Shown piece after piece: positions 16,955 through 56,752 of a stretch of DNA of 56,752 nt. The DNA comes from Okeania sp. SIO2C9. Lineage in GTDB: Bacteria > Cyanobacteriota > Cyanobacteriia > Cyanobacteriales > Microcoleaceae. The notes beneath the pieces are model-generated. The model saw only the letters and a list, made by a program, of their open reading frames with translations, did not search any database and was not told the origin of the DNA. Made by a program: the position numbers and the translations under genes. The first letter of the stretch is position 1. Each line of letters opens with the position of its first letter. Location: positions 1 through 56,752 of the forward strand of contig NZ_JAAHGO010000056.1 in assembly GCF_010672455.1 (NCBI RefSeq), given 5' to 3'.

Positions 16955-17225
16955 AGAAGGAAGAAGGAAGAAGGAAAAGTCATACTTGATCTGAGTTTTA
17001 AATTTTTGAACTATTCTAACCTTACCTTCGACTATTAACTATATGCAAGATTTCAATGATTAAGTAATTATTAGGATTCAATAACGTTTTCAACGATTAT
17101 TAGCCAGTGATTGTATATTATTCTTAATGTTTACTACTCCCCCACTCCCCCACTCCCCTACTCCCTCACTCCCCTACTCCCCCACTCCCCTACTCCCCCA
17201 CTCCCCTACTCCCAACAACTCTAAT
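16955..17225. repeat. GAAGGAA-family repeat and CTCCCC tract
   Basis: GAAGGAAGAAGG directly follows the kinase stop and continues into a repeat seen at 37882, 41763, 44818 and 48020, with CTGAGTTTTAAATTTTTGAAC. From about 17130 a pyrimidine tract of ACTCCCCCACTCCCCTACTCC units runs about 85 bases. No gene is seen. Confidence 0.7.
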
Positions 17226-21854: not shown

Positions 21855-23303
21855 GCGATCGCCAGAGCAACAAAATTATTATAACTTATACCAAAACGCT
21901 ATATATAACGTATACTGAATAGAGCGAACTCTTAAAAATTTATAGCGATCGCCTGCACAAAAACATTATTATAACTTATATTAAATATAATCTAGTATAA
22001 TTAATTTTAGCTCTATGATATGTGGCTAATTGTAAATAAGTTTGGCTCAAATACCCTGATTATTGTACAATAATATTACTGTTAATTTGAGCTAATAAAA
22101 TGAATTTTAACTATATTGATCCCATACCAATATTTACTAAATTATCATACAAATTATACCATCACAAATTTAGCAAATCACCTAGAAAACATTAGCCATG
22201 ATACGATTAATCGTTATTTAAGAACAGAATCTCTAAACTCACAAGATTTATGGGAAAATGTCAAAAAGGAAATTGTCCAAAATACGGAAGCATACCTGAT
22301 TTTTGATGATACAGTAATTAAGAAAAAATATGCTAATAAAATTGAACTTGTGCGAAAACAATATAGTGGTAATGAACATCAAGTAATTCAGGGTATAGGA
22401 ATAGTTAATTGTATCTATTTAAATCCCCAAAACGAACAATTTTGGATAATAGATTACCGTATTTATGATCCAGAAAGTGACAAAAAAACTAAAATAGATC
22501 ATGTTGAAGAAATGATATTAAACGTGGTAAATAAAAAGAAATTACCATTTAAAACTGTACTAATGGATAGTTGGTATGCAATACAAAGATTAATGGGACT
22601 GATAGATAACTTAGGAAAAATTTATTATTGCCCCTTAAAAATTAATCGTTTAGTAGATGATACTGGTGGTGCAGAAAAATATAAAAGTATTGCTAAATTA
22701 AGCTGGAATAAATCAGAAAGAACATCAGGTAAAATAATAAAAATTAAAGGTTTTCCAAGAGATAAAAAAGTCAAACTATTCTGGGGTACTATTTCTGCCA
22801 ATAGAACAGAATACATTGTCACTAATGACTTAAGTCAATCTTCGACAGATGATGTAGAATTCGAGTCGCAAACTAGATGGAAAATCGAAGATTTTCACAG
22901 AGAAATCAAGCAATTAACAGGAATAGAGTTTTGTCAATGTCGCCTGGCAAAAATTCAAAAAAATCATATTGCCTGTGCTATGTTAGTTTGGAATAATTTA
23001 AAAAAACTAGCTTACATTCTGGGAAAAACTATTTATCAACTCAAACATCAATTATTATCTAAATATCTAGTATCTGAACTCAAATATCCTGCAATTAAAA
23101 TGACGGCTATTTAAGTTTTTATCACTAGAGAAATGCTCGGCGATCGCTCTCTAAAAATTATAGCTATCGCTCAGTTTGCCATACACTATATATAGTGTCT
23201 TGGTATAAGTTATAATAATTTTGTTGCTCTGGCGATCGCTTAAAAATTATAGCGTTCGCTAAGTTTGCCATACACTATATATAGTGTCTTTGCGTAAGTC
23301 CTG
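21791..23303 (+). mobile_element. Complete insertion sequence, 1513 bp, TSD TTAAT
   Basis: Inverted terminal repeats of 102 bp (21791-21892 and 23202-23303): the outer 41 bases are identical and only about five mismatches follow. TTAAT flanks both ends (21786-21790 and 23304-23308). The outer end is CAGGACTTACGCAA, then a CACTATATATAGTG palindrome. Just inside each terminal repeat is a second, diverged copy of its palindrome/GCGATCGC section, so the ends are doubled. It carries one transposase gene and matches MITEs at 487, 4057 and 11776. Confidence 0.93.
22116..23114 (+). CDS. DDE transposase (IS4/IS701-like)
   Basis: A 332-residue transposase of the IS4-like DDE group. AYLIFDDTVIKKK supplies the first Asp, TVLMDSWYAI the second, and WKIEDFHREIKQLTG the Glu in a Y/HREK-type signature. 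NHIACAMLVWNNLK follows, as in IS701-like proteins. The frame starts only at TTG. An ATG at 22100 reads MNFNYID and would join this frame if one C of the CCC at about 22119 were absent, so this copy may carry a one-base frameshift near its start. It lies inside the IS at 21791-23303, flanked by that IS's own repeats. Confidence 0.85.
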   Translation: MIPYQYLLNYHTNYTITNLANHLENISHDTINRYLRTESLNSQDLWENVKKEIVQNTEAYLIFDDTVIKKKYANKIELVRKQYSGNEHQVIQGIGIVNCIYLNPQNEQFWIIDYRIYDPESDKKTKIDHVEEMILNVVNKKKLPFKTVLMDSWYAIQRLMGLIDNLGKIYYCPLKINRLVDDTGGAEKYKSIAKLSWNKSERTSGKIIKIKGFPRDKKVKLFWGTISANRTEYIVTNDLSQSSTDDVEFESQTRWKIEDFHREIKQLTGIEFCQCRLAKIQKNHIACAMLVWNNLKKLAYILGKTIYQLKHQLLSKYLVSELKYPAIKMTAI

Positions 23304-53165: not shown

Positions 53166-54065
53166 ATGAAGTTACCAACTTTTCTAATAATAGGAGTACA
53201 GAAGGCAGGAACTACATCGGTCTATGGATATTTAAAGGAACATCCCCAGGTGTATATGAGTCCCATTAAGGAAACAAATTTTTTCGCTACAGATTGGGAA
53301 AACAATACAGAAAAAAAACCAGATACAGGAACAAGAAAAAGAATTAATAGCTGGGAAAGATACTGTGAACTTTTTATGAATGTAAAAGATGAGATTGCTA
53401 TAGGAGAAGCATCTCCTAACTATCTTGTTAACTATGAAACTTCATCGGAAATGATTCAACGTTATGTTCCTAACGTGAAAATGATTGCTATATTGAGAAA
53501 TCCTGTGGACAGAGCTTATTCTGATTATTTAATGCACCTTCGTGATGGGATAAATGTGGGAAAAGTTAGGTCTCTAAGCGAACAAGTTAAATTTCGGGCA
53601 GATAGTTCTTCAACAATCAAGAAAGGATTATATTATTCTCCTATCAAACATTATTTAGATACTTTTGACCGAGAAAAATTAAAAATTATTCTCCATGATG
53701 ATTTAACTAAAGATTCTTTAACGGTGATGCAAGAAATTTATAGATTTATTGGGGTAGATGATACATTTAATCCTGATACTTCAAAGCGTAGTCAAAGTGC
53801 GGCTGTACCTAAGAATCAAACATTGAATAATTTATTGCAAACAAAAAATCCAGTAAGGAAAGCTATTTCATCAACCCTCAAAGTATTAATGCCTTTAGAA
53901 ATGCGGCAGAAATTACGCTCTAATATAATTAAGTTAAATTCAGCAGGAAAAGAACTCAAACCTCTTTCTTCAGAAGAGCGTCAAGTATTAACTGAATTTT
54001 ACCGTGAAGATATTCTCAAGTTACAAGATTTGATTGACAGAGACCTTTCATCTTGGTTGGAATAG
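53166..54065 (+). CDS. Sulfotransferase (PAPS-dependent)
   Basis: A 299-residue enzyme of the sulfotransferase fold that transfers sulfate from PAPS to an alcohol or carbohydrate. The 5'-phosphosulfate loop FLIIGVQKAGTTSVYGYL (6-23) and the 3'-phosphate site ILRNPVDRAYSDYLMHLRDG (about 113-132) are both clear. IGEASPNYLV and KGLYYSPIKHYLDTFDREKLKIILHDDL follow, as in heparan-type bacterial relatives. There is no signal peptide. The usual PAPS-binding residues look intact. A GCGC-ended repeat and the hairpin array follow directly. Confidence 0.93.
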   Translation: MKLPTFLIIGVQKAGTTSVYGYLKEHPQVYMSPIKETNFFATDWENNTEKKPDTGTRKRINSWERYCELFMNVKDEIAIGEASPNYLVNYETSSEMIQRYVPNVKMIAILRNPVDRAYSDYLMHLRDGINVGKVRSLSEQVKFRADSSSTIKKGLYYSPIKHYLDTFDREKLKIILHDDLTKDSLTVMQEIYRFIGVDDTFNPDTSKRSQSAAVPKNQTLNNLLQTKNPVRKAISSTLKVLMPLEMRQKLRSNIIKLNSAGKELKPLSSEERQVLTEFYREDILKLQDLIDRDLSSWLE

Positions 54066-54220: not shown

Positions 54221-55405
54221 AAAACTACAACGTCTTAGTTTTTCTGCTGTTATAGCTTTTGTTATGGTGAAAAACCAGGCACTCAAAATTACAACGTCTT
54301 AGTTTTGCCATCTATTAGATGTTGTTGCCTCTACAAATCAGACACTCAGAAACTACAACGTCTTAGTTTTGCCATCTGTGTAGATGTTGTTACCTCTAGA
54401 AATGAGGCACTCATAACTGCAACGTCTTAGTTTTTCCATCTATTAGATGTTGTTACCTCTAGAAATCAGGCACTGAAAACTATAACGTCTTAGTTTTGCC
54501 ATCTGTGTAGATGTTGTTACCTCTAAAAATGAGGCACTCATAACTGCAACGTCTTAGTTTTGCCATCTCGTAGATGTTGTTGCCTCTAGAAATCAGGCAC
54601 TCAAAACTACAACGTCTTAGTTTTGCCATCTAGTAGCTTTTGTTGCCTCTACAAATCAGGCACTGAAAACTATAACGTCTTAGTTTTGCCATCTGTGTAG
54701 ATGTTGTTACCTCTAAAAATGAGGCACTCATAACTGCAACGTCTTAGTTTTGCCATCTGTGTAGATGTTGTTACCTCTAGAAATCAGACACTCAAAACTA
54801 CAACGTCTTAGTTTTGCCATCTAGTAGCTTTTGTTGCCTCTACAAATCAGGCACTGAAAACTATAACGTCTTAGTTTTGCCATCTAGTCAGTAGGTTGTT
54901 GCCTCTAGAAACCAGGCACTGAAAACTATAACGTCTTAGTTTTGCCATCTAGTCAGTAGGTTGTTGCCTCTAGAAATCAGACACTCAAAACTACAACGTC
55001 TTAGTTTTGCCATCTAGTTAGCAGGTTGTTGCCTCTAGAAATCAGACACTCAAAACTACAACGTCTTAGTTTTTCCATCTATTAGATTAGATATTGTTGC
55101 CTCTAGAAATCAGACACTCAAAACTACAACGTCTTAGTTTTGCCATCTAGTCAGTAGGTTGTTGCCCCTAGAAATCAGACACTCAAAACTACAACGTCTT
55201 AGTTTTGCCATCTAGTCAGTAGGTTGTTGCCCCTAGAAATCAGACACTCAAAACTACAACGTCTTAGTTTTGCCATCTAGTCAGTAGGTTGTTGCCTCTA
55301 GAAATCAGACACTCAAAACTACAACGTCTTAGTTTTGCCATCTAGTTAGCAGGTTGCCCCGAGAAACCAGGTACTCAAAACTACAACGTCTTAGTTTTTC
55401 CATCT
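54221..55405. repeat. 19-unit tandem array of a 62-68-bp hairpin-forming repeat
   Basis: Nineteen copies of CAACGTCTTAG, with first bases at 54231, 54295, 54359 and so on to 55387 (spacing 62-68). The constant core is CACTCAAAACTACAACGTC then TTAGTTTTGCCATCT, in which CAAAACTA pairs with TAGTTTTG around an invariant CAACGTCT loop. The middle third varies: CATCT...AGATG pairs in early units and TAGTCAGTAGG in later ones, and TGCCT...AGGCA or CCTC...GAGG forms a second stem. No open frame spans it. It is not CRISPR because the intervening parts are related to each other. Confidence 0.9.
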
Positions 55406-55610
55406 AAGAACTATTATATGATTTTTACTTAAAGAAATATTCTAGCACGTTGCTGAAATACTGAGAAAATTTTTGAGGCAAAACATCGGGTGGTTATGTA
55501 TAAGCATTTTTTGTAAATTGGGTTGAAGTAAGAAAGTTCTGATGGTTATGGAAAATCAATGTTTGTATTTGTAGGTATTACAATGATTGTAAAAATTATT
55601 TTATTGAGTT

Positions 55611-56752
55611 ATGACTTATCCTAGAAGAAAGAATAAGAATTATATACCAGCACATTTTCGAGAAAGAATACAAGTAGCTAAGGATAATAAACTTAAGGAA
55701 TTAGATTTAAGTAACAATTTTTCTAGCAGAGATTATAATAGATTAACCGAGATTCCTACTACAGTTTGGGACTTAGAGCAGCTAGAGTCATTAATTTTAA
55801 TTGGGAATCAGTTAAAAATCTCAAGGCTAATAACTAAACTTGCCAGTTTAACTTACCTTAATTTAAGTGAAAACCAACTAATAAGTCTGCCAGAATCAAT
55901 AACTCAGCTTACTAATTTAACGGCTCTTTATTTAGGTGGAAACCAATTAACAAATCTGCCAAAATCAATAACTAAGCTTACTAATTTAGCTGAACTTTAT
56001 TTAGGTGGAAACCAATTAACAAGTATTTCAGAGTCAGTAACTCAACTTACTAATTTATCTGAACTTTATTTAGGTAATAATCAATTAACATATCTTCCAG
56101 AATCAATTGGTGAATTTACGAATTTAACTATTCTTGATTTAGGTAGTAATCAATTGGAAACTCTCCCAGAATCAATTGGTAAACTTACCAACTTAACTCA
56201 CCTCGATCTTAAAGGGAATCAATTGACAACTCTCCCAGAATCAATTGGTAAGCTTACTAACTTAAATCACCTCGATCTTAAAGGGAATCAATTGACAACT
56301 CTCCCAGAATCAATTGGTAAGTTTACTAACTTAAATCACCTCGATCTTAAAGGGAATCAATTGACAACTCTCCCAGAATCAATTGGTAAACTTACCAACT
56401 TAACTCACATTAATTTAGGCTTTAATAATATTAAAAATCTTCCCAAATCCATCACTAAACTCACCAATTTAAATCATCTTAATTTAAGAGGCAATCCCTT
56501 AGAAACTCCACCAATAGAAATTGCTGAAAAAGGGATAAAAGCAATTAGAGAATTTTTCCGACAAGAAGAAGAAGAAGGAACAGATTATCTCTATGAAGCA
56601 AAATTACTAATTATTGGAGAAGGTGGCGCTGGTAAAACTACTCTAGCTAATAAAATTCAAAACCCAGACTATCAACTACAAGATGAAGATTCCACAAAAG
56701 GAATTGAAGTTTATCAGTGGAATTCTCCTACAACAAATCAACATAACTTTCA
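55611..56752 (+). CDS. Leucine-rich-repeat Roc-type GTPase (ROCO-like), 3' end outside the window
   Basis: The first 380 residues of a large signalling GTPase. After a 30-residue lead come 11-12 leucine-rich repeats of 23 residues (LTNLTxLxLxxNQLTxLPESI), the last few near identical. Then a connector (IAEKGIKAIREFFRQEEEE) and the Roc domain starting AKLLIIGEGGAGKTTLANKI (P-loop near 336-345). ROCO proteins normally continue with a COR domain and effector regions; these lie beyond the window. The ATG at 55611 fits. Homologs in filamentous cyanobacteria are often over 800 residues. Preceded by the hairpin array. Confidence 0.9.
   Translation, partial: MTYPRRKNKNYIPAHFRERIQVAKDNKLKELDLSNNFSSRDYNRLTEIPTTVWDLEQLESLILIGNQLKISRLITKLASLTYLNLSENQLISLPESITQLTNLTALYLGGNQLTNLPKSITKLTNLAELYLGGNQLTSISESVTQLTNLSELYLGNNQLTYLPESIGEFTNLTILDLGSNQLETLPESIGKLTNLTHLDLKGNQLTTLPESIGKLTNLNHLDLKGNQLTTLPESIGKFTNLNHLDLKGNQLTTLPESIGKLTNLTHINLGFNNIKNLPKSITKLTNLNHLNLRGNPLETPPIEIAEKGIKAIREFFRQEEEEGTDYLYEAKLLIIGEGGAGKTTLANKIQNPDYQLQDEDSTKGIEVYQWNSPTTNQHNF

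Follow-up and report, generated by a model that had tools for sequence, protein, structure and literature searches.

By analogy, the described kinds of sequence that come closest to the array analysed here are small dispersed repeats and tandem REPIN clusters. The small dispersed repeats (SDR) of Nostoc and its relatives, attributed to Elhai and co-workers in 2008, are reportedly 21-27 nt long, in some cases palindromic, and confined to clades; they are also said to occur within minitransposons and tandem repeats. A tandem small-RNA array upstream of a gene, NsiR1, is known from a filamentous cyanobacterium. REPIN clusters in Pseudomonas form ordered tandem series in which the flanks are repeated too, according to the accessible portion of PMC3116915. 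In the accessible portion of PMC3733652, the results list CGTC repeats in five phyla, Cyanobacteria not among them (the abstract is worded more loosely), and clusters are described as rare.

The array lies in the window, which is the whole stretch of 56,752 nucleotides of Okeania sp. SIO2C9 DNA that was analysed. The relevant unit is smaller than the repeat of the preliminary description; it is a 22-bp imperfect palindrome, AAAACTAYAACGTCTTAGTTTT, hereafter the core. Likened by description alone, the core resembles the SDR in size, palindromy, clade limit and minitransposon or tandem context, and it differs from them in being the common element of long, differently spaced tandem arrays in Okeania and Trichodesmium. 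As in REPIN clusters, a short palindrome is tandemly repeated together with its flanks, whereas the copies here are direct repeats of one core and REPINs, in the part of PMC3116915 available, are head-to-head doublets. REPs tagged with GTAG or CGTC are likewise short, mostly intergenic palindromes, and the core contains CGTC; its CGTC, however, lies inside the dyad centre, whereas theirs is unpaired at one end (PMC3733652, available portion). The array consists of tandem repeats of a size like those of NsiR1 and also stands upstream of a gene, but in contrast to NsiR1 it gave no RNA signal in our sequence analyses. An approximately 86-bp element with GGACTTACG ends and a perfect-palindrome core is a palindromic minitransposon (MITE); the units of the window array, inspected by eye, differ in having no visible GGACTTACG ends.

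Two further kinds were rejected. CRISPR requires unique spacers, and the spacers of the window array are near copies of one another. Partition or replication iterons were dismissed, as the array adjoins a sulfotransferase gene and a ROCO gene, with no par or rep gene, and the search of the array for plasmid or phage similarity gave no match.

Results

Architecture of the array in the window

The preliminary description had placed an array of 19 repeat units of 62-68 bp between a sulfotransferase and a ROCO-like gene, and this layout was confirmed. TRF reported a tandem array with a period of 65, 17.7 copies and a score of 1596 at 54272-55406. The noncoding array comprises 19 cores from 54221 to 55398, with a core-to-core spacing of 62-68 bp. 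The sulfotransferase is a PF00685 match (9.1e-15). The LRR protein on the other side, which is cut by the window end, has a Roc match of 25.2 bits, below the Pfam cut-off of 27 bits; its relative at locus L057 is a complete LRR-Roc-COR protein. The features are as follows.

53166..54065, plus strand: sulfotransferase gene, 5' of the array; also the neighbour in L055, L057 and L085
54221..55398, plus strand: tandem array of 19 cores of 22 bp and 18 spacers of 40-46 bp each
54221..54242, plus strand: core copy no. 1; left-flank likeness to the inner units stops 1 bp left of the 20-bp dyad
54285..54793, plus strand: early units, with CATCT..AGATG right of the core in most; 54603-54665 deviates
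54413..54434, plus strand: core with a changed left arm (ATAACTGC...), an example of three such
54857..55376, plus strand: later units, most of which carry CATCTAGTCAGTAGG or CATCTAGTTAGCAGG on the right side of the core; 55052-55119 is divergent
55377..55398, plus strand: final core copy; the conserved ROCO leader comes next
55399..55610, plus strand: ROCO leader of about 212 bp, alike after the last core at related loci
55611..56750, plus strand: LRR-ROCO gene, truncated by the window end

At the first core of the orthologous arrays, the left-flank likeness to inner units extends over 14 bp in L055, 49 bp in L057 and 51 bp in L085. Early units with CATCT..AGATG and later units with TAGTCAGTAGG, which had been taken as two subfamilies spread by local homogenisation, were both found. 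Adjacent units are more alike than distant ones (p = 0.004), and the likeness within four units was matched by none of 5000 shuffles. Since near units resemble each other more, local homogenisation holds. The loop had been called invariant; this was not the case, as it reads CAACGTCT in 15 of the 19 cores and TAACGTCT in the other 4.

Other repeats are present in the window. Positions 31-299 hold a long run of an 8-bp repeat, GGGAGATT, in 33.6 copies; ACTCCCCC, an 8/16-bp repeat, lies at 17136-17213; and 1.8 copies of an 89-bp repeat that includes GCGATCGC and an ACTATATATAGT palindrome lie at 23134-23299.

The core as a dispersed dyad

Outside positions -1 to +21 the information was 0-0.5 bit in a profile of 86 locus records, in which positions 0-19 were preselected by the search pattern and which include orthologs, overlapping fetches and coding coincidences, so that not all records are independent. 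Core variants retain the dyad around ACGT; they include the perfect palindromes AAACTATAACGTTATAGTTT and AAACTAAGACGTCTTAGTTT, whose counts are strand matches because palindromic variants were counted on both strands. The preliminary description was right about a repeated palindrome; its 8-bp stem is better seen as belonging to a DNA dyad of 22 bp with ACGT in the middle.

The genome of origin holds three core arrays besides that of the window (period about 65 bp): one of about 92 bp in contig C90, one of about 155 bp in C112 between genes whose translations read, by eye, as tyrS and pyrF, and a half-core array of about 125 bp in C101. The spacers differ between these arrays, as judged by eye. 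When up to two mismatches were tolerated, single sites outside the arrays also appeared, six of them non-coding and one coding, and the reversed pattern used as a control gave two matches. Like a small dispersed repeat, the core is a dyad in the 20-30 bp range that is present at many places. The same 22-bp core occurs in differently spaced arrays and in a minitransposon, which goes beyond what had been described for this locus. At the loci compared, no clean 22-bp insertion against an empty site was seen; one array appears to have come within a larger block.

The perfect-palindrome form of the core is the centre of the approximately 86-bp palindromic minitransposon. Twelve single perfect palindromes were fetched, and 9 of them (L234-L239, L241, L242 and L252) have both GGACTTACG ends, judged by eye with one or two mismatches allowed; L240 has one end, L244 is degraded and L243 has none. 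The minitransposon pattern occurs in 87 copies in the genome of origin, with various palindromic centres, and at least one of these, among the matches listed, carries this core. A sister palindrome with the same arms as the core, AACTATTGNNCAATAGTT, is found in further minisatellites and also serves as a centre of this minitransposon (L272, L305); a shorter form of it occurs in L291 and L296.

Distribution

A motif search with one mismatch allowed detected the core in 11 of 148 genomes, coding copies being included in this count. It was present in all five genomes of the same genus and in 6 of 7 of the Trichodesmium-type genus, which bears out the conservation in relatives that had been proposed as a check, and in none of the 136 other relatives searched. 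All 40 named stretches with the core, again counted with coding copies, belong to Okeania, Hydrocoleum or Trichodesmium. A looser dyad was found in 2 of 388 genomes of the class, namely the genome of origin, which was the sole member of the two genera in that draw, and one other genome with a single site. The exact core was not found in viral contigs. A literature search with the sequence string returned a 13-letter piece and no full core, and a search for Okeania repeats was likewise empty; within the reach of these searches, the core has not been described before.

Neighbour genes and turnover of sites

The preliminary description had also proposed to look for a constant neighbour gene, and the ROCO gene proved to be the usual neighbour of the window array family, which comprises thirteen loci chosen by eye. 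A ROCO open frame begins 211-213 bp past the last core at seven of them (the window, L051, L055, L057, L068, L085 and L089) and 390 bp past it in L053. L062 has a flank in common with the ROCO loci and is cut, and in L072 the DNA ends too soon; L071, L081 and L084 have no ROCO frame after the last core. The sulfotransferase is the upstream neighbour at four of the thirteen loci (the window, L055, L057 and L085). Further arrays or single sites lie near an apparent pyrF, a WD40 protein, a sugar kinase, an LCP protein, argG and others; all gene names besides sulfotransferase and ROCO (tyrS, pyrF, fabZ, argG, LCP, sugar kinase, symporter, Phd and so on) are by-eye readings of translations.

Orthologous core sites turn over. 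The LCP locus has the site, with 0-3 mismatches, in all seven Trichodesmium-type genomes, and the site was not found in the DNA upstream of the LCP gene in any of five Okeania genomes. The number of cores upstream of pyrF is 7-10 in G000, G002, G003 and G004 and five in G016; G021, G010 and G028 have one or two, and G025 and G031 have none. G001 has two cores about 1.5 kb upstream of pyrF on the same contig (L054). In Hydrocoleum CS-953, six cores lie beside tyrS (L056). At the sugar-kinase locus, in a comparison that leaves out G000 (contig end), the core and the DNA from it up to the start codon, about 46 bp further 3', are common to G001, G003, G004, G016 and G021, and on the left side of the core the sequence is different in several genomes. 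In G002 the left arm is replaced, and in G010 the site is absent. The sugar-kinase array of L060 (G001:C115) holds duplicated N-terminal fragments of the kinase gene.

The gap between a symporter-like and a Phd-like gene holds an array in G001 and G002, whereas G000 and G021 have the same two flanking genes without an array (8 of 14 fetched loci were read, and the G028 extract was misplaced). From this pattern we infer that an array block was copied into the gap in two species.

Some copies of the core are coding. At five Okeania loci (L014, L074, L079, L083 and L087) the exact 20-bp core lies in the coding sequence of a giant gene, and near matches are present in Trichodesmium-type orthologs. 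That the core is a short insertion in this gene was rejected, as the five loci align codon for codon with core-less orthologs; these copies are attributable to coding conservation. The site of L156 lies inside a 1044-aa frame, and L248 seems by eye to be the same coding stretch. The AAACTATAACGTCTGAGTTA site in G016 is similar to a site within a 680-aa frame in L013 and probably coding as well, which is a guess; such rows are part of the 86-record profile. L013 (contig C2 of the genome of origin) holds an apparent diversity-generating retroelement, with the reverse transcriptase, the avd-like gene and the target gene named by eye. Its target frame contains a core-like site, and one isolated core lies on the far side of the reverse transcriptase.

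Divergence, edges and flanks of the arrays

The core had diverged less than the spacer in all 22 measurable arrays, a comparison in which orthologous arrays are not independent and in which units begin at cores with at most one mismatch, which biases it towards low core divergence. Of the 27 arrays tried, L015, L141, L143 and L153 were without usable spacing and L151 had too few units. As many as 334 of 1325 spacer windows were conserved as well as the core. The better preservation of the core than of the spacers suggests constraint or repeated exchange.

Of 44 array edges, 6 were no more than 4 bp from a core and 38 were farther away, which speaks against a direct role of the core and indicates that it is generally inside the duplicated piece and not at its end. 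A role of the core as the cut point of duplication was not supported on this ground. Among 53,673 inter-locus pairs of sites (332 of the 341 sites, coding copies included), both flanks were alike in 745, the left flank only in 470 and the right only in 83. The periods of 19 arrays showed no significant helical phasing (R = 0.32 at 10.5 bp, p about 0.15).

Minisatellite controls

As a control sample, 40 stretches amounting to 791 kb (L268-L307) were picked by hand, not at random, from the larger contigs of G000 and G016. They contained 53 tandem arrays, 37 called noncoding and 16 coding, which make up 5.6% of the sequence; one noncoding minisatellite repeats a 78-bp unit 32 times. At two mismatches or fewer the core occurred in 2 of the 53 arrays and in 1 of the 37 noncoding ones; the core array of L294 qualifies only at two mismatches, so that at one mismatch L296 alone remains. 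Noncoding minisatellites are therefore common in these genomes and mostly without the core. Since 51 of the 53 arrays (36 of the 37 noncoding) lack it, duplication does not need the core.

In the same 791 kb, all six core copies (one mismatch) lay inside arrays, at one place, as did 16 of 19 copies of the sister palindrome AACTATTGNNCAATAGTT, at two or three places. Minitransposon ends were inside arrays in 0 of 52 cases, and two other palindromes of minitransposon centres in 0 of 7 and 0 of 1. The unrelated octamer GCGATCGC was also over-represented in arrays (36 of 317). These counts suggest that the core and AACTATTGNNCAATAGTT favour arrays, on few (3-4) places. The idea that any palindrome may seed an array fared poorly, as the unit dyad beat shuffles (p<=0.05) in only 4 of 37 noncoding arrays; the figure for coding arrays was 2 of 16.

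Y1 transposases gave 158 Y1_Tnp matches in 12 genomes, and about 1.5 kb around each of the 30 loci fetched contained no copy of the core (core 1), with up to two mismatches tolerated; the sister palindrome AACTATTGNNCAATAGTT occurred somewhere in the fetched 3.4 kb at 2 of the 30. No unpaired GTAG or CGTC tag was found at the foot of the stem, and there was no constant tag outside -1 to +21. In this sample, a REP/RAYT system was thus not supported.

RNA structure and signals

The second stem of the repeat had been described as having two sides that change together. In the three-stem structure, none of 18 pairs showed a two-sided change (shuffles 0.9), and the second stem (helix 3) was paired in 68% of cells; in the different structure that RNAalifold itself proposed, the count was 0 of 9. 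In the named structure 83.6% of cells are paired, and sliding it lowers this to 28-41%, so that the units are able to form hairpins. Such pairing is expected, because the structure was read from the same sequences and the unit is a repeated near-palindrome. A unit with the next core folded better than shuffles on either strand in all five cases tested (z -2.7 to -4.4). The array contains 2 promoter-like sites against 3.8 expected and 0 terminators against 0.9 expected. Rfam gave no match at gathering score and a single one at chance level (E 0.97).

Discussion

Our leading reading, put forward tentatively, is that a small dispersed palindrome specific to the clade provokes duplication of its surroundings, and that the array is a minisatellite which grew on it. 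The 22-bp dyad stands alone at some places, lies in the middle of a palindromic minitransposon at others, and is shared by arrays with different spacers. According to this reading, the palindrome, capable of forming a hairpin on single strands, would disturb replication, and the disturbance would lead, by slippage or template switching, to tandem duplication of the adjoining DNA. The array would next be expanded and homogenised by unequal exchange. In the window, such palindrome-driven growth would have taken place upstream of the LRR-ROCO gene. The enrichment of GCGATCGC in arrays slightly lowers this reading and raises that of a plain minisatellite.

By weight, the rivals rank as operator array, plain minisatellite, enzyme site and RNA. 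It is doubtful, though less so than for the other three, that the dyad is bound by a putative dimeric, clade-specific protein and that its numerous copies upstream of ROCO, pyrF and other genes are retained to regulate or to titrate that protein away. The sharp dyad in the 86-record profile, the low divergence of the core relative to spacers (22 of 22 measurable arrays), the 211-213 bp to the ROCO start at seven loci and the kinase core, kept about 46 bp before the start codon in five genomes though the DNA to its left differs in several, are what such operators would lead one to expect. They would not lead one to expect the turnover of sites (LCP site in 7 of 7 Trichodesmium-type genomes against none found upstream of the gene in 5 of 5 Okeania, kinase site absent in G010 and with its left arm replaced in G002); nor was helical phasing of the 19 periods significant, and the neighbour genes, named by eye, point to no regulon. 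A plain neutral minisatellite, in which the core was merely present when duplication occurred, is unlikely. It would agree with the 36 of 37 noncoding arrays without the core in 791 kb, with edges mostly off the core (38 of 44) and with the mild enrichment of GCGATCGC. On the other hand, one pattern in the genome of origin accounts for 4 arrays against 6 non-coding single sites, with 2 matches for the reversed control; the spacers are more diverged than the core, and a second palindrome with the same arms is likewise concentrated in arrays.

An enzymatic reading, in which a recombinase, nickase or transposase works at the core and exchanges or amplifies the DNA beside it, is quite improbable. 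Flanks do reassort at cores (745 pairs alike on both sides, 470 on the left only and 83 on the right only, of 53,673), the similarity between several species at the kinase locus ends at the core, and inside it in G002, and the core sits at the centre of a minitransposon. The reassorting pairs, however, come mostly from one array family, and where nothing but the core is shared, the same pattern results from ordinary homologous exchange; 6 of 44 edges are within 4 bp of a core, none of the 30 sampled Y1-transposase loci (of 158 matches) has core 1 and 2 have the sister palindrome, and by eye no recombinase gene was noticed beside the arrays. A repetitive non-coding RNA was among the candidates of the preliminary description; on the sequence analyses we consider it very improbable that the array is one, with small RNAs in tandem as in NsiR1. 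The folding of a unit with the next core and the 83.6% of cells paired in the named hairpins speak for it, the former being as expected of a repeated near-palindrome. Against it stand the two-sided changes in 0 of 18 pairs, the deficit of promoter-like sites (2 against 3.8) and terminators (0 against 0.9) relative to expectation, the lack of a gathering-score Rfam match, and spacers that are not alike from array to array. An RNA gene was rejected on the lack of covariation, of a promoter or terminator excess and of an Rfam family.

A bolder proposal, which we regard as improbable, is that the dyad is the recognition site of a putative clade-specific DNA-processing or DNA-binding protein that seeds arrays. 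The core would then be a mobile element reduced to one binding site, shuffling its flanks and turning unrelated intergenic DNA tandem.

The Trichodesmium genome is about 40% non-coding, according to the available portion of PMC4649490. A clade-specific palindrome common to different minisatellites offers a concrete handle on the growth of non-coding DNA. The core makes it testable whether a 22-bp dyad alone provokes tandem duplication or whether an additional protein is required.
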